Shown here: positions 6,470-13,520 of the stretch, piece by piece
Position numbering within the stretch: position 1 is the stretch's first letter
Layout: each line of letters opens with the position of its first letter
Source: Streptomyces sp. 11x1
Lineage (GTDB): Bacteria; Actinomycetota; Actinomycetes; Streptomycetales; Streptomycetaceae
Direction of reading: 5' to 3'
Length of the DNA stretch: 64,000 bases
Assembly: GCF_032598905.1 (NCBI RefSeq)
Contig: NZ_CP122458.1
Span: 10,007,001 to 10,071,000 of the forward strand
The notes under the pieces: generated by a model
Database searches by the model: none
What the model saw: only the letters and a program-made list of their open reading frames with translations
Told to the model about the DNA's origin: nothing
Position numbers and translations under genes: made by a program

Positions 6470-7676
6470 CCGCCTTGAGCACCACGAACTTGGCGTCGCT
6501 CGCGACGAGTTCGCTGTTGCCGAAGATCCGCCGCAGCGTCACGTGATAGCCCAGATGACGGTTCCCGACCACCCAGAGCTCGCCACCGGGCCGCAGCGCC
6601 CGCCGTGCCCCGGTGAACATCCGCCGCGCCGTGGCGTCGCTCGTCGCCTGGTGCGAGTGGAACGGCGGGTTGTTCAGGACCAGATCGACACTGCCCGGCG
6701 CGAACCCCTCCAGCCCGTCACCGACCAGGAACTCGGCCGACCCGCCGGCCCTTCCCTCGGCCGCACCGGGTGCCGTACGACGCACCGCTGTGCCGCCCTT
6801 CCCGTCGGCGTCCGGCAGATTCGCCCGGTACGTTGCCTCCGCCGAGGCGACCGCCTGGTAGGACTCGTCGACGAACACCACCTCGGCGCCCGGATCGGCC
6901 AGCGCGATCGCCGTACCGACCACCCCGTTGCCGCACCCCAGATCCACGACCCGCCCGCCACGCGGCGCCTGCGGCAGCTGCCGCAGGAAGAACCGGGTGC
7001 CGATGTCGAGCCGGTCGGCACAGAACACGCCCGCGTGGTTGACGACGGGGCGTCCGGCCAGCACACCGATGTCGTCCGGCAGCCGGTAGGTGTACGGCCA
7101 CGGATCGTCCCCCCGGGCCTTGAGCGTCGCCGCGTCCGGGGCGCAGTGGATCAGCCGCGCCTTCTGCCGGGCGAGCGAGGTGCGGGTCGGGCCGAGGATC
7201 CGCTCGAAGAGCTTCAGCGTCGAGGTGTGGATCTCCTTGACCATCCCGGTGCCGATCACGACCGTGCCCTCGTGCACGGCGGGCGCGAGCCGGTGCAGCT
7301 GGTCCTCCAGGAGCGCGAGGCTCTTGGGGACCCGTACGAGGAGCACGTCGACGCGGTCCGGCGGAGTGTCCCGGGTGGTGAGCAGCCGCAGGGCGTCCGC
7401 CTCGACGCCGTTGCGTTCCAGGTTGGCCCGCGTCGCCTGCCGGCCCAGGAACGAGTCGGTGATCTGCGTCGGCCGGTGCGCGGCGAGCGCGGTGGTCAGC
7501 GCGCCCCAGCGGTCCCCGACGACCACGACCGTCCCGTCCAGCCGCGTCCCGCTCTCCGCGAGGTGGCGCAGCAGATACGCGTCGGACGCGTCCCAGGCGC
7601 GCAGCGGGTCACGGGGGTCCTCGGGAAAGCGGGCCAGGTCGTACTCGCCCTCGGGCGCGGTCATACGGTCGCTCAT
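6456..7676 (-). CDS. RlmG/RsmC-like rRNA (guanine-N2) methyltransferase
   Basis: 406 aa with the two-part build of RlmG/RsmC: a degenerate N-terminal methyltransferase-like half and a C-terminal catalytic half. The SAM-binding loop reads VVDLGCGNGVVGTA and the catalytic motif is NNPPFHSH. The family methylates guanine N2 in 16S or 23S rRNA; RlmG acts on 23S G1835 in E. coli. A small insertion rich in Gly/Ala sits between motifs. The start at ATG 7676 lacks a strong ribosome site; ATG at codon 5 is an alternative. It is divergent from alkB. Confidence 0.87.
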   Translation of the reverse strand: MSDRMTAPEGEYDLARFPEDPRDPLRAWDASDAYLLRHLAESGTRLDGTVVVVGDRWGALTTALAAHRPTQITDSFLGRQATRANLERNGVEADALRLLTTRDTPPDRVDVLLVRVPKSLALLEDQLHRLAPAVHEGTVVIGTGMVKEIHTSTLKLFERILGPTRTSLARQKARLIHCAPDAATLKARGDDPWPYTYRLPDDIGVLAGRPVVNHAGVFCADRLDIGTRFFLRQLPQAPRGGRVVDLGCGNGVVGTAIALADPGAEVVFVDESYQAVASAEATYRANLPDADGKGGTAVRRTAPGAAEGRAGGSAEFLVGDGLEGFAPGSVDLVLNNPPFHSHQATSDATARRMFTGARRALRPGGELWVVGNRHLGYHVTLRRIFGNSELVASDAKFVVLKAVRRT

Positions 7677-7779
7677 CGTGCGCCCAGGCTAACCGAGCAC
7701 GGCCCCGCTCCCGGCCGCCGAGCAGCCGTGGGGGCGAGGGCCCCGCCGGCACCGGGCCGCCGTGCGGGACGATGGTTGC

Positions 7780-8436
7780 ATGGACGCCGAGCTGTTCCCC
7801 CGGAGCCGGACGGAGGTCGCGCCCGGCGCGGTCCATGTGCCCGAGTGGCTGGACGCCGAACAGCAGCGCCACCTCCTGGACGCCTGCCGCGTGTGGGCCC
7901 GCCCGCCCGCCGGGCTCCGCACCGTCCGCACCCCGGGCGGCGGCACGATGACCGCCCGGCAGGTCTGCCTCGGCCGGCACTGGTACCCGTACGCCTACGC
8001 CAGGACCGTCGTCGACGGCGACGGCGCGCCCGTGAAGCCGTTCCCGGACTGGCTGGGGGAGCTGGGCCGGCGCGCCGTCGAGGACACCCTCGGAGCGGAG
8101 GCGGCGACCGCCGCGTACGACATCGCCCTGATCAACTTCTACGACGGTGACGCGCGCATGGGGATGCACCGCGACGCCGACGAGAAGTCGGACGCGCCGG
8201 TGGTGTCGCTGAGCCTCGGTGACAGCTGTCTCTTCCGCTTCGGCAACACGCGGACACGGACCCGGCCCTACACGGACGTGGAGCTGCGCAGCGGTGACCT
8301 CTTCGTGTTCGGCGGGCCGGCCCGGTCCGCCCACCACGGGGTGCCCCGGGTGTATGCGGGGACCGCGCCGGCCGGGCTGGGGCTGGTCGGGCGGCTGAAC
8401 ATCACCCTGCGGGTCGGCGGCTTCGACGACGGCTGA
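7780..8436 (+). CDS. alkB: AlkB-family Fe(II)/2-oxoglutarate DNA-repair dioxygenase
   Basis: 218 aa, matching AlkB. The iron triad appears as MHRDADEKS (His and Asp) and AHHGVPRVY (distal His), followed by RLNITLR with the 2-oxoglutarate-binding Arg. INFYDGDARMGMH is the usual lead-in. It oxidatively removes methyl groups from 1-methyladenine and 3-methylcytosine in DNA or RNA. ATG 7780 begins the conserved product; the GTG at 7762 would add six residues. No Ada gene is adjacent. Confidence 0.93.
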   Translation: MDAELFPRSRTEVAPGAVHVPEWLDAEQQRHLLDACRVWARPPAGLRTVRTPGGGTMTARQVCLGRHWYPYAYARTVVDGDGAPVKPFPDWLGELGRRAVEDTLGAEAATAAYDIALINFYDGDARMGMHRDADEKSDAPVVSLSLGDSCLFRFGNTRTRTRPYTDVELRSGDLFVFGGPARSAHHGVPRVYAGTAPAGLGLVGRLNITLRVGGFDDG

Positions 8437-8487
8437 GGCCCGCCGGGCGGGGTTCGACGCCGAGCGGATCATGGGAGACTCGCCCTC

Positions 8488-9729
8488 ATGGACGGGAAGG
8501 CGGCCCCCAAGGCGGCGGGCGAAGGGACGACGGCACGGACGCGGCTGGACCGGGGCAGGGGCGCGCTCGGTCCGGCGCTGGAGCTGGTGCACACCGGGCG
8601 GGCCCCGACGAGGGCCGTGCTCACCGCCGAACTGGGCGTCACCCGGGCCACCGCCGGTGCCGTGGCCGTCGAGCTGGAGGCGTTGGGGCTGATCCGGGTC
8701 GACGCGCACCCGGGGGCCGCAGCCGGCTCCCAGGGCCGGCCCTCCCACCGCCTGGAAGTCGACGAGGAGGGACCCGTCGCGCTCGCCGCCCAGGTGCACT
8801 CCGACGGCTGGCGCGCCGCGCTGGTCGGGCTCGGCGGGCGGATCGTCGCCACCACACCCGCCTGCGAGATCGTGGACGCCGACCCGGCGAAGGTGCTCGG
8901 CTCGGTCGTCGACGCGGGCGCCGAGCTGCTGGCGGAGACCGGGCGCCGGTGCGTGGGGTCGGGCCTGGCCGTGCCGTCGGCCGTCGCCGAGCCGGCGGGG
9001 CTGGCCCTGAACCCGCTGCACCTTGCGTGGCCGGCCGGGGCGCCGGTCCGGCAGATCTTCGCCGAGCGGGTCCGCGCGGCCGGGATCGCGGGACCCGCGT
9101 TCGCGGCGAACGACGTCAACCTCGCCGCCCTCGCCGAACACCGGCACGGCGCCGGGCGCGGTTCCCACGATCTGCTGTGCGTGGCGACCGGGCACCGGGG
9201 CGTCGGCGGCGCGCTGGTCCTCGACGGCCGTCTGCACACGGGCAGTTCGGGCCTGGCCCTGGAGGTCGGTCACCTCACCGTCAACCCCGAGGGCCGCCCC
9301 TGCCACTGCGGCAGCCGAGGCTGCCTCGACGTCGAGGCCGACCCGCGTGCCTTCCTGTCCGCCGTGGGCCGCGATCCGGGCCCCGAGGGTTCGCTGCTGC
9401 AACAGGCGAACGAACTGATCCGCACCCAGTACGGTGACCCCGGTGTCCGTACGGCCGCCGAGGCCGTCATCGACCGCCTCGGCCTCGGGCTCGCCGGGCT
9501 CGTCAACATCCTCAACCCCGACCGCATCATCCTCGGCGGCATGCACCGCGCCCTGCTCGACGCCGACCCCGACCGGCTGCGGGCGGTCGTCGCCGAGCGC
9601 AGTCTGTGGGGACGGCAGAGCGGGGTCGCCCCGATCCTGGCCTGCACCCTGGATCACAACAGCCTGGTCGGAGCGGCCGAGTTGGCGTGGCAGCCGGTGC
9701 TCGACGACCCGCTGGGCGCGCTGGCCTGA
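8488..9729 (+). CDS. ROK-family transcriptional regulator (NagC/XylR type)
   Basis: 413 aa. An N-terminal winged helix (residues about 25-75, TRAVLTAELGVTRATAGAVAVELEAL) precedes a full ROK domain. The ROK cysteine signature CHCGSRGCLD and a sugar-kinase-like NDVNLAALAE are present. Proteins of this build are repressors that bind a sugar or sugar phosphate; some retain kinase activity. It stands 51 bp after alkB and has no sugar operon directly next to it, so its target is not evident. It converges on gtrA with a 6-bp gap. Confidence 0.9.
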   Translation: MDGKAAPKAAGEGTTARTRLDRGRGALGPALELVHTGRAPTRAVLTAELGVTRATAGAVAVELEALGLIRVDAHPGAAAGSQGRPSHRLEVDEEGPVALAAQVHSDGWRAALVGLGGRIVATTPACEIVDADPAKVLGSVVDAGAELLAETGRRCVGSGLAVPSAVAEPAGLALNPLHLAWPAGAPVRQIFAERVRAAGIAGPAFAANDVNLAALAEHRHGAGRGSHDLLCVATGHRGVGGALVLDGRLHTGSSGLALEVGHLTVNPEGRPCHCGSRGCLDVEADPRAFLSAVGRDPGPEGSLLQQANELIRTQYGDPGVRTAAEAVIDRLGLGLAGLVNILNPDRIILGGMHRALLDADPDRLRAVVAERSLWGRQSGVAPILACTLDHNSLVGAAELAWQPVLDDPLGALA

Positions 9730-10170: not shown

Positions 10171-10951
10171 CAGCGAATGAGGTCCTTCGTCGTGCCGCAC
10201 GCGGCGTGCCCCTCCGTCTGTTCCGCGTTGGTCGCCTGCACCAGGAAGTGCGGGCGCCCCTTCACCTCGTAATAGATCCGGCCGGTGTACTCCCCGATCA
10301 CCCCGAGCATGATCATCTGTCCTCCGGCGAGGGCGGTCACGGCCATGACGATGGTGACATAGCCCGGCGTCTCCACGTCGTTGACGAGTCGTCACCCACG
10401 ATCCAGGCCGCGTGGAGCCCCGTGCACACCAGCAGCCACAGACCGAGGTGGAGGGCAGCAGGCAGCGGACGGTTGTTGAAAGAGGGCAGCCCGTCCAGTC
10501 CGTAGTTCAGGAGCGACCGGAAGCTCCAGGAGCTGCGCCCGTGCCGGCGCGCGGCGTTCTCGTACTCGAAGGTCGTCCCGGGGAAACCGACCCGGGCGAA
10601 TAGCCCCTTGGAGAAGTGGTTGTACTCCGTCAGGTCCAGGACGGCGTCGACGACCCGGCGTGACAGCAGCCGGAAGTCCCCCACGCCGTCGACGAGTTCC
10701 ACGTCGACGAGCCGGTTCACCAGCCGGTGGTACAGGCGGGCGGCGGCGGTGCGCAGCAGGCCGCTCCGGGTGCGCCGGCCGAAGGGGTGACTGCGGGCCA
10801 CGACATCGGCGGCGTAGAGCACGGCGAGGGTGAACGCGGTGGCGAGCAGCGCGGCTTTTCTCCGCGGTCGAACTCCCGCCGCGGAACGGGTTTTCGGTTT
10901 CACACCCCGACCCTGTCCGCTCGGCACACCGAGTTCCGCTGAACTACCCAC
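10170..10951 (-). pseudogene. Broken GtrB/DPM1-type family 2 glycosyltransferase
   Basis: The C-terminal part of a GtrB-like enzyme is clear but split over two frames. One frame carries ARLYHRLVNRLVDVELVDG and GDFRLLSRRVVDAVLDL. After about 10390 the other frame carries ETPGYVTIVMAVTALAGG and GVIGEYTGRIYYEVKGRPHF. Adding one C near 10389-10391 would join them. The usual N-terminal GT-A half with its DxD and QDPPE region is missing and replaced by about 55 unrelated residues. The enzyme cannot be active as read. The 150 bp upstream (10952-11101) has lower GC and holds no recognisable gene. Confidence 0.8.
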
Positions 10952-11101: not shown

Positions 11102-11974
11102 TCATCCAGGTGATCGACGGGTGAACTCGGCCGTGAGACTCCACAGCGCGGCCACCTGGGGCCGCCGCAGATCCGCCCGCCGGACGCACAGCCCGATCAG
11201 GAACGGCCGCGGAGGCGTGTGGGTCGGTACCACCGTGAGCCGGTCGCGTACGGCGCTGTGGTCCAGCACCAGGCGGGGGACCACGCCCGTGCCGCAGCCC
11301 AGCGCGACGAGGGTCAACAGCGCCTCGTGGCCCTCCGGTTCGGCCGCCAGGTCGGGGGCGGTGCCGCGGGCGCGGAACCACCGGTCGGCCGCGTCGCGCA
11401 CCGCCCCTCGGTGGGGAAGCACGAAGGGCCCGTCGAGGCCGGGGTCGGGGCGGTGGTGCGCAGTGACGAACACCAGGTCCGTCGTCGCCACGGTCCGGCT
11501 CACCAGCGGCTCCGGCAACCGCGTCGGGAGGCCCGCGACCGCCACGTCCACCTCGCCCTCGTCCAGCCGCGCCGGCGCGGTCGCCGCGTCTCCGGTGCGC
11601 AGGTCGAGTCGGACCTGGGGATGGGCCGCACGGAAGGGCGTCAGCAGCTTCGGCAGCAGCGCCTGACACGCGGTCACCGTCGCGAACACGGTCAGCCGCC
11701 CGGTGAGTTCGGCAGGGTCCGGGTGCTCCTCCCGGTACGCCCGCCACAACTCCAGCGCCTGGGCGGCGTATTCGCGGAAGCGATGCCCCTCGGCCGTCAG
11801 TGCGACACTCCTCGGCCCCCGGTCGAGGAGCCGGTGCCCGAGGTCGGATTCCAGCCGCTGCACGGTCCGGGTCAGGGTCGCCGGGCTGACATGGCAGTCC
11901 AGGCTGGTCCGCCCGAAGTTCAGCGTCCCGGCCAGATGGAGGAAGAGCCGAAGCTCGCGATGGTCGTCCCGCAC
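11102..11974 (-). CDS. ilvY: IlvY-like LysR regulator of the divergent reductoisomerase gene
   Basis: 290 aa with an N-terminal LysR helix-turn-helix and a co-inducer domain. The start region (LRLFLHLAGTLNFGRTSLDCHVS) and later TGDAATAPARL and GHEALLTLVALGCGTGVVP resemble enterobacterial IlvY closely as remembered. GTG 11974 is preferred to TTG 12004 because it gives the IlvY-like N-terminus. IlvY activates ilvC when bound by acetolactate or acetohydroxybutyrate. It is divergent from the ilvC gene with an 88-bp gap, exactly the enteric ilvY-ilvC arrangement. Confidence 0.87.
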   Translation of the reverse strand: MRDDHRELRLFLHLAGTLNFGRTSLDCHVSPATLTRTVQRLESDLGHRLLDRGPRSVALTAEGHRFREYAAQALELWRAYREEHPDPAELTGRLTVFATVTACQALLPKLLTPFRAAHPQVRLDLRTGDAATAPARLDEGEVDVAVAGLPTRLPEPLVSRTVATTDLVFVTAHHRPDPGLDGPFVLPHRGAVRDAADRWFRARGTAPDLAAEPEGHEALLTLVALGCGTGVVPRLVLDHSAVRDRLTVVPTHTPPRPFLIGLCVRRADLRRPQVAALWSLTAEFTRRSPG

Positions 11975-12000: not shown

Positions 12001-12056
12001 GCAACGCCCCGCTGCGAAGGTTGCGCTTGTCGCAACGCTCGCCGGGACCCTACAAC
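12001..12056 (+). promoter_or_regulatory. ilvC promoter with overlapping IlvY-type operator palindromes
   Basis: TTGCG (12021-12025) and CGCAA (12031-12035) form a 15-bp palindrome, and GCAAC (12001-12005) pairs with GTTGC (12020-12024). IlvY sites are of TTGC/GCAA type. A promoter TTGTCG (12027-12032), 18-base spacer, TACAAC (12051-12056) overlaps the palindrome. Its predicted start lies at or next to the ATG at 12063, so the mRNA is probably leaderless. Confidence 0.7.
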
Positions 12057-12062
12057 TCCACC

Positions 12063-13520
12063 ATGACCACCTCCACTGTCTTCTCCCTCGAAACCATGGA
12101 CGTGCCCGGCGGTACCGAGACCGTCCTGCGTGGCGGCCGCCACCTCTTCCCCCTGTTACCGCGGGCCTTCGCCGGGGTCCGGCGCATCGGGGTCGTCGGC
12201 TGGGGACCGCAGGGCCGGGCCCAGGCCCGCAACCTGCGCGACTCCCTCTCCGGCACCGGGATCACCGTCTCGGTCGGCCTGCGCCCCGGCTCGGCCTCGG
12301 CCGCCGACGCCCGTGCCCACGGTTTCACCGAGGCGGACGGCACCCTCGGCGACTGGCTCGCCGTCACCGCCGAGAGCGACCTCGTCATCCTGCTGATCGC
12401 CGACGCGGCACTCGCCGCCCACCGCCGGGAGATCTTCGCCGCCCTGAAGCCCGGCGCCACCATCGGCCTCTCCCACGGCTTCCTGCTCGGCCACCTCCGG
12501 GCGACCGGCGGCGACTTCCCGCCCGGCCACGGTGTCATCGCCGTCTGCCCGAAGGGGATGGGCGACTCGGTCCGCCGCCTCTACGAGCAGGGGGCCGAGA
12601 TCAACGGCGCCGGGATCAACAGCAGTTACGCCGTCCACGCCGATCCCGACGGCCACGCGACCGACCGCGCCCTCGCCTGGTCGGTCGCCCTCGGCTCCCC
12701 GTACACCTTCCGCACAACCCTGGAGAGCGAGTACCTCTCCGACATCGTCGGCGAGCGTGCCATCCTGCTCGGCGCCGTGCACGGCATCGTGGAGAGCCTC
12801 TACACCCGCCACCGGCTCGCCGACGACGACGAGGTGACCGCGTACGAGCGTTCCTGCGAGAACATCACCGGTCCGATCGCCCGCACCATCTCCGGTGCCG
12901 GCCTGCGCGCGGTCCGTGAGAACCTCGACACGGACGGACGGGGCGTCTTCGACCGGGCCTACACCGCCACCTACGGGCCCGCCCGGGAGATCGTCGCGGA
13001 GATCTACGACGAGGTGGCCGACGGCACCGAGCTGCGCAGCGTCGTCCTGGCCGAACGCCGCCTCGGTGCCCGCCCGATGAGCGAGATCGGCGGTTCACCG
13101 ATGTGGTCGGTGAGCGCCCGGGCACACGCCCGCCGGGGAGAATGCGACCTGCCCGTCGACCCGTTCACCGCAGGGGTTTTCATCGCCACGATGACCGCGC
13201 AGATCGACGAGTTCGTCGAGCGCGGCCACCCCTGGTCGGAGATCGTCAACGAGTCCGTCATCGAGGCCGTCGACTCCCTCCTGCCCTACATGCGTGCCCG
13301 GGACGTCGCCCACATGGTCGACAACTGCTCCCGCACGGCCCGCCTCGGTGCCCGCCGCTGGGGCCCCCGCTTCGAGGCCGCCTACACGCAGATCGCCTAC
13401 CCCGCCGCCGAACACCCCGCCGACGAGGCTCTGTTGGCTTCCTTCACCGCCCACCCCGTGCACCGCGCCCTGGCGGCGGCGGCGAAGCTCCGGCCGCCGG
13501 TGGACATCTCGGTGGTCTGA
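12063..13520 (+). CDS. ilvC: Class II (long, plant-like) ketol-acid reductoisomerase
   Basis: 485 aa, against about 335 for the class I enzyme normal in actinomycetes. Catalyses NADPH-dependent isomeroreduction of acetolactate in valine/isoleucine synthesis. Motifs match the chloroplast enzyme of plants: GWGPQGRAQARNLRDSL (NADPH loop), AVCPKGMGDSVRRLY, GAGINSSYAVH, EYLSDIVGERAILLGAVHG (Mg ligands Asp and Glu), INESVIEAVDSL, VDNCSRTARLG and the ending RPPVDIS. No transit peptide is present. It is divergent from ilvY and alone in its transcript, with no ilvBN nearby. This strongly suggests a second, acquired enzyme beside the housekeeping ilvBNC. Confidence 0.93.
   Translation: MTTSTVFSLETMDVPGGTETVLRGGRHLFPLLPRAFAGVRRIGVVGWGPQGRAQARNLRDSLSGTGITVSVGLRPGSASAADARAHGFTEADGTLGDWLAVTAESDLVILLIADAALAAHRREIFAALKPGATIGLSHGFLLGHLRATGGDFPPGHGVIAVCPKGMGDSVRRLYEQGAEINGAGINSSYAVHADPDGHATDRALAWSVALGSPYTFRTTLESEYLSDIVGERAILLGAVHGIVESLYTRHRLADDDEVTAYERSCENITGPIARTISGAGLRAVRENLDTDGRGVFDRAYTATYGPAREIVAEIYDEVADGTELRSVVLAERRLGARPMSEIGGSPMWSVSARAHARRGECDLPVDPFTAGVFIATMTAQIDEFVERGHPWSEIVNESVIEAVDSLLPYMRARDVAHMVDNCSRTARLGARRWGPRFEAAYTQIAYPAAEHPADEALLASFTAHPVHRALAAAAKLRPPVDISVV

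Follow-up and report, generated by a model that had tools for sequence, protein, structure and literature searches.

In Escherichia coli, the regulator IlvY, whose gene is divergent from the class II ketol-acid reductoisomerase (KARI) gene ilvC, activates ilvC in response to acetohydroxy acids, and to our knowledge IlvC is the sole KARI of this organism. The Streptomyces IlvC enzymes, such as the products of ilvC1 and ilvC2 in S. coelicolor, are of class I and shorter than the KARI studied here, from which the same reaction is expected. According to the accessible part of PMC4353338, in which we did not find the terms “class II” and “LysR”, such paralogues can be functionally different, a double mutant of ilvC1 and ilvC2 exists, and one KARI paralogue was recruited in the Streptomyces valanimycin pathway. 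Chloroplast KARIs are represented by the structures of the rice (3fr7) and spinach (1qmg and 1yve, the latter with the inhibitor IpOHA) enzymes. The available portion of PMC5940873 gives Km values for plant KARI of ~11 μM for acetolactate and ~5 μM for Mg2+, and of 420–900 μM for Mg2+ for bacterial and fungal KARIs. Judged by sequence, plant-type KARIs also occur in many bacteria from several phyla, including uncultured ones (MAGs of Actinomycetota, Acidimicrobiales, Armatimonadota, Polyangia and Dehalococcoidia), whose enzymes are of the same subtype as ours and 58–64% identical to it among the matches listed. A 491-aa class II KARI, whose DNA matches that of Morganella morganii exactly and whose kinetics resemble those of E. 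coli KARI, has been attributed to one strain of M. tuberculosis (partial text of PMC8985424); presumably it belongs to the E. coli type. A module of IlvY with a plant-type KARI is not mentioned in the accessible parts of PMC5592239 or PMC6939163, and we found no mention of it in the titles and opening abstract lines of the literature searched.

The window, by which we mean the whole 64-kb stretch of Streptomyces DNA that was analyzed, contains such a module, with the following features:

12063 to 13520, forward strand: plant-type class II KARI (ilvC-like), 485 aa, assigned by Pfam, PDB sequences and an AlphaFold model
11102 to 11974, reverse strand: IlvY-family LysR regulator, 290 aa, divergent from the KARI gene, assigned by model NF008722
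12020 to 12036, no strand: proposed IlvY operator, the palindrome GTTGC-GCTTGTC-GCAAC, which contains the LysR-type T-N11-A, based on conservation
12001 to 12005, no strand: proposed second half-site GCAAC, based on the conserved spacing of GCAA
12027 to 12056, forward strand: promoter-like hexamers for KARI, TTGTCG (12027–12032) and TACAAC (12051–12056), based on sequence

The KARI reading frame has zero internal stops, and its product fits the description of a plant-type class II KARI (~490 aa, with an N-terminal Rossmann domain and duplicated C-terminal knot domains), with the Pfam domains KARI_N and KARI_C both above their cut-offs and KARI_C matched as two stretches. Among PDB sequences, the rice (561.8 bits) and spinach (547.5 bits) KARIs are the best matches, the next best being KARI from Candida auris (136.4 bits), with the E. 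coli class II IlvC at 59 bits. The same holds for an AlphaFold model made from 26 aligned sequences (mean pLDDT 88.2, pTM 0.90), for which rice and spinach KARI account for all of the ten top Foldseek matches (query TM 0.90–0.97, 53–56% identity), while the E. coli KARI chains reach TM 0.71–0.73 at 19–20% identity. Both searches bear out the chloroplast-like class II enzyme proposed by an initial sequence-only reading of this DNA; six of the seven motifs on which that proposal was built are exact in the protein, and the seventh, given as INESVIEAVDSL, actually reads VNESVIEAVDSL. The likeness to chloroplast KARI in fold and length extends to the catalytic residues: H138, K164, E223, D227, E231, E397, E401 and S423, which we take to be the catalytic and metal-binding positions (two Mg2+ sites and the Lys, His and Ser), are invariant in the 26-row alignment and align with their counterparts in E. 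coli, spinach and rice. The protein is predicted to have KARI activity with NADPH and Mg2+. Scored on its own, the window KARI fell under the curated cut-off of all four NCBIfam ilvC models matched (TIGR00465, 172.6 vs. 226.15 bits; NF004017, 115.4 vs. 336; NF009940, 72.1 vs. 406; NF003557, 63.2 vs. 713).

The regulator gene is separated from the KARI gene by a gap of 88 bp. Its start was chosen from the sequence as the GTG that follows AGGTGG, the ORF of the prediction tool extending to a TTG at 12004. The product passes the NF008722 IlvY model (273.7 bits, cut-off 246) and, across 293 positions, shares 37% identity with E. coli IlvY. At 1e-50 this model matches E. coli alone among 14 control genomes, and at 1e-30 it matches two further controls, both under the cut-off. 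The sequence-only reading had the KARI gene standing alone without ilvBN; indeed, none of the nine neighboring ORFs scanned matches ilvB or ilvN, but the gene is not alone, since an IlvY-family regulator lies divergent beside it.

This pairing is highly conserved. In 295 Streptomyces genomes, the IlvY model finds matches in 29 (28 of them above the cut-off), and the coordinates place the IlvY gene divergent beside the KARI gene in all 24 genomes with an IlvY-linked KARI, that of the window included; a 25th carrier of plant-type KARI, G138, falls outside the IlvY-linked type. We also compared 78 named loci, which are the distinct ones among the best 80 of 93 matches to one query and comprise close relatives only: an IlvY homologue is present in 72 of them, the highest count of nine neighbors tested. 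In the other five of the 29 genomes, the IlvY-family gene lies away from any plant-type KARI, being divergent from a methyltransferase-like gene in four (called by Pfam in G107 and G200, and by a similar sequence start in G259 and G277) and from an isochorismatase-like gene in G202. Because of these five genomes, IlvY family membership alone is no proof of KARI control, and the case for such control therefore rests on linkage.

A LysR tree (midpoint-rooted and with long branches, seven rows whose aligned stretch ran past the terminal stop being left out) sets E. coli IlvY together with the KARI-linked and methyltransferase-linked regulators apart from four other LysRs (SH-aLRT 100). The methyltransferase-linked regulators belong to a second IlvY-family branch in Streptomyces (L100 6944–8628, L101 7313–9024, L103 7406–9081 and L104 6291–8023), whose gaps retain pieces resembling the KARI palindrome and its TACAA-type stretch, as though one target gene had been exchanged for another. 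Locus L102 (8094–9771) falls in this same branch, its closest divergent gene being the isochorismatase-like one.

For the gap itself, we collected 73 distinct intergenic sequences from 82 loci in which both genes are close together. The core TTGC-N7-GCAA is found in 66 of these (composition shuffles give it at a rate of 0.0012) and is missing in its exact form from seven; the longer GTTGC-N7-GCAAC is found in 50, and an extra GCAA exactly 16 nt upstream of the core in 62. The core occurs once in the window, and across the genome the longer form is found in exact copy at 12 sites (vs. 3 for a backward control), none of the other 11 lying in the region C1:3060000–3075000 around the class I ilvC. 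The palindrome was not found in the 350 bp upstream of any of five plant-type KARIs without IlvY (L090, L091, L092, L093 and L095). These patterns suggest that the palindrome may be bound by IlvY. The E. coli ilvY-ilvC gap contains the core as well, as TTGCAAAAATTGCAA, so that both loci have an IlvY-family gene and a class II KARI gene in divergent orientation, with a TTGC-N7-GCAA in between. The E. coli palindrome, however, is on the ilvY side, with 23 bp to the start of ilvY and 111 bp to ilvC, whereas in the window 26 bp separate the end of the palindrome from the KARI ATG; given this difference in geometry, the mode of activation may differ from that in E. coli. TTGTCG, within the proposed operator, and TACAAC are 18 bp apart, and the TACAAC stretch is conserved across the alignment of the 73 regions, making the two hexamers a candidate KARI promoter. 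As TACAAC ends 6 bp before the ATG at 12063, the KARI mRNA may be leaderless.

Four Kribbella loci, in which IlvY was not found within 1.5 kb of the KARI gene, still have the palindrome upstream of KARI. Because the palindrome persisted without an adjacent IlvY, we searched these genomes for the regulator, and found IlvY homologues 6–7 kb upstream of KARI on the same strand in all four, as a single open frame in three and with a frame change in the assembly in one (L119 1459–2273). In the four stretches read beside these displaced genes, the palindrome core was not found.

The genome to which the window belongs (10.67 Mb) also encodes a class I KARI elsewhere, at C1:3066909, in the order ilvB-ilvN-ilvC as recognized by eye (L097). 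The second ilvC that the sequence-only reading had proposed to look for is thus present. That reading had named as evidence against itself a sole ilvC shared throughout the genus; what we found is a patchy distribution, with plant-type KARI in 25 of 295 Streptomyces genomes (E ≤ 1e-100), all 25 of which have kept a class I KARI as well. Only an incomplete KARI was found in 3 of the 78 named loci (best 80 of 93 matches), all from Streptomyces (L088 5995–6636, L087 6001–6837 and L058 6001–7664), suggesting that KARI may be dispensable in some strains; in L088, a search of the surroundings gave no IlvY homologue.

A phylum-wide sample of 296 genomes contained plant-type KARI in two, namely the genome of the window and G345. 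The latter, the one genome looked at among the uncultured carriers, is actinobacterial and small (3.3 Mb). Its plant-type KARI (L096 8398–9888) is the only KARI found there, and, unlike in the window, no LysR like that of the window was found within 1.5 kb of it (4.5-kb locus searched). A separate group of plant-type KARIs, ~58–59% identical to that of the window, comes from three large Streptomyces plasmids and G138 (L091 11974–13455; L092 11989–13452; L093 about 8001–9449; L095 about 7232–8671). No LysR like that of the window was found near the plasmid-borne genes, and G138 has no IlvY match. A joint acquisition of the IlvY-linked and plasmid-borne Streptomyces KARIs was weakly rejected when the two were constrained together (AU 0.034), and the plasmid/G138 group is probably the result of a second, independent acquisition within Streptomyces.

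The chromosomal surroundings are shared with strains that lack the module. A homologue of the ROK gene in the window lies within the locus in 52 of the 78 named loci (best 80 of 93 matches), and the ROK gene is present in 79 of 81 Streptomyces genomes; on these grounds, we rejected a reading as recent mobile cargo. In all six non-carriers fetched, the ROK gene and the HATPase-side block are present and the IlvY-KARI pair is missing, and in two carriers fetched alongside, the pair sits between the two. The pair is therefore accessory, a cassette at a site common to carriers and non-carriers. A scan of 29 flanking ORFs, 7 of which are without Pfam match, found no polyketide or peptide synthetase and no other branched-chain pathway enzyme, and so gave no direct support to the inhibitor resistance or the branched precursor pathway that the sequence-only reading had raised. 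One of the window's ORFs (10337–10951, reverse strand), which adjoins a GtrA gene, has a partial PgfS-type glycosyltransferase match (model positions 119–246 of 308) and looks truncated.

As to where the enzyme came from, we built a KARI tree from which the partial L058, L087 and L088 and the copies L002, L003, L004 and L034 were left out, thinned by identity to 103 rows, with SH-aLRT support from quick searches. Constraint (AU) tests were run on 77 rows, E. coli IlvC being left out, with two land plants (rice and spinach) as the entire plant and algal sample. All 25 IlvY-linked KARIs fall into a single group (SH-aLRT 100, stem 0.46), and the rice and spinach KARIs cluster with other bacterial sequences (SH-aLRT 99). 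Forcing the IlvY-linked clade together with rice alone (AU 6.5e-5) or with spinach alone (AU 2.1e-5) was rejected; forcing it together with both was not (AU 0.097), so that the clade may have a deeper sister relation to both plants. In line with this, the window KARI is 56% identical to that of rice and ~60–63% identical to the nearest rows outside its own clade, and rice KARI is ~64–65% identical to its nearest bacterial rows (both among the matches listed). That a plant donated the gene directly, which the strong similarity to chloroplast KARI might suggest and which the sequence-only reading had offered as one possible source, is therefore hardly credible: nesting with either of the two land plants alone is rejected, the plant and Streptomyces enzymes are each nearer to other bacterial ones than to one another, the closer relatives of the window KARI are bacterial, its regulator and palindrome are bacterial, and the third-position GC of its gene, at 0.93, follows the pattern of actinomycete genes. 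The other source offered, bacteria carrying a plant-type gene, has held up. By sequence, the window KARI is a member of a separate actinobacterial clade among the bacterial plant-type KARIs, far from class I and from the E. coli class II enzyme, and within the present sampling its origin is bacterial. Sequences from Streptomyces, Pseudonocardia, Nonomuraea, Kribbella and Microlunatus intermingle within this clade, which suggests transfer among actinobacteria. Acquisition of an E. coli-type KARI jointly with ilvY was rejected, as E. coli IlvC represents the second class II type and is 28% identical to the window KARI over a 286-column part only.

Our preferred reading, to which we give a probability of about 0.72, is that of an accessory ilvYC divergon that has a plant-type enzyme in place of the E. 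coli type, induced by acetohydroxy acids and acting as a back-up to class I. The plant-type KARI would convert acetolactate and acetohydroxybutyrate to the dihydroxy acids with NADPH and Mg2+, like the resident class I IlvC. The IlvY-family regulator would occupy the gap palindrome and, when the acetohydroxy-acid substrates accumulate, activate the KARI gene as E. coli IlvY does, so that the second KARI would be used once the class I enzyme is limiting and would be a demand-driven back-up. Both the inducer and the back-up role are argued by analogy with the biology of E. coli IlvY, which makes a substrate-induced second KARI the likeliest role. The module, of bacterial source, would have spread across actinobacterial families and, in a subset of Streptomyces, would occupy a common site on the chromosome. 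A role beyond bulk valine synthesis, as the sequence-only reading had suggested, is compatible with a second, separately regulated copy.

Both genes are under purifying selection (eight comparisons each), with dN/dS values of 0.15–0.19 for KARI and 0.12–0.21 for IlvY; a reading of KARI as a pseudogene is thereby ruled out. Compared to chloroplast KARI, the enzyme lacks a six-residue insert, FYEKEG, that is present in both plant rows, and its bacterial clade has changed loops. GWGPQGRAQ is found in 80 of 85 clade rows, where the 127 other plant-type rows have GWGSQGPAQ (114) or GWGSQAPAQ (12); CPKGMGDS is found in all 85, compared to CPKGMGPS in 126 of the 127; and DNCSRTARLG is found in 80, compared to 2 of the 127. 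These rows include near-copies, and three of the 85 are proteins counted without genomic neighborhood. Since the signature residues flank catalytic positions, affinity or inhibitor response may be altered, and since they adjoin active-site motifs, the substrate could have shifted.

With loops changed next to K164 and S423 and a second copy under an IlvY-type regulator, the enzyme might keep working when a natural or man-made inhibitor blocks the class I IlvC, the block being detected by IlvY through the accumulating substrate. We consider such tolerance to KARI inhibitors distinctly unlikely, as no inhibitor gene cluster was recognized in the 29 flanking ORFs scanned, the enzyme is found in several genera, and KARI herbicides act on the plant enzymes too. 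It is likewise quite improbable that the enzyme is an isozyme of high affinity, suited to low levels of Mg2+ or acetolactate: its nearest solved relatives are the plant KARIs, whose published Km values are tight (PMC5940873, in part), but it is just 53–56% identical to these, and control by IlvY suggests a response to high rather than low substrate. A neofunctionalized reductoisomerase, acting on another 2-keto/2-hydroxy substrate of specialized metabolism, would fit the long stem of the clade (0.46) and its loop changes, and has precedent in the KARI paralogues recruited elsewhere in Streptomyces, for example for valanimycin (PMC4353338, in part). It appears very improbable, however, given that the catalytic set and the pairing of IlvY with the palindrome were kept and that IlvY alone is near-constant among the nine neighbors tested.

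The combination of IlvY, palindrome and plant-type KARI would thus be a variant of the already known ilvY-ilvC regulatory unit, and the substrate-induced back-up remains our preferred account of it. A bolder version, which we regard as unlikely, is that the remodeled plant-type KARI is a rescue enzyme, silent until acetohydroxy acids accumulate, that provides tolerance to natural KARI inhibitors in soil. If this were true, one regulator-operator pair would have been kept while the controlled enzyme differs between two distant class II KARI types. For the interpretation of such genes, the analysis corrects a possible misreading as plant-to-bacterium transfer, and the presence of plant-type KARIs in several bacterial phyla bears on the origin of chloroplast KARI. 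For resistance mining, the locus offers a lead, in that it may be an inducible spare copy of a herbicide target. Finally, a plant-type enzyme with an IlvY-type bacterial switch, as a second enzyme for valine and isoleucine in antibiotic-producing bacteria, bears on the combination of IlvY control with enzymes of more than one type.
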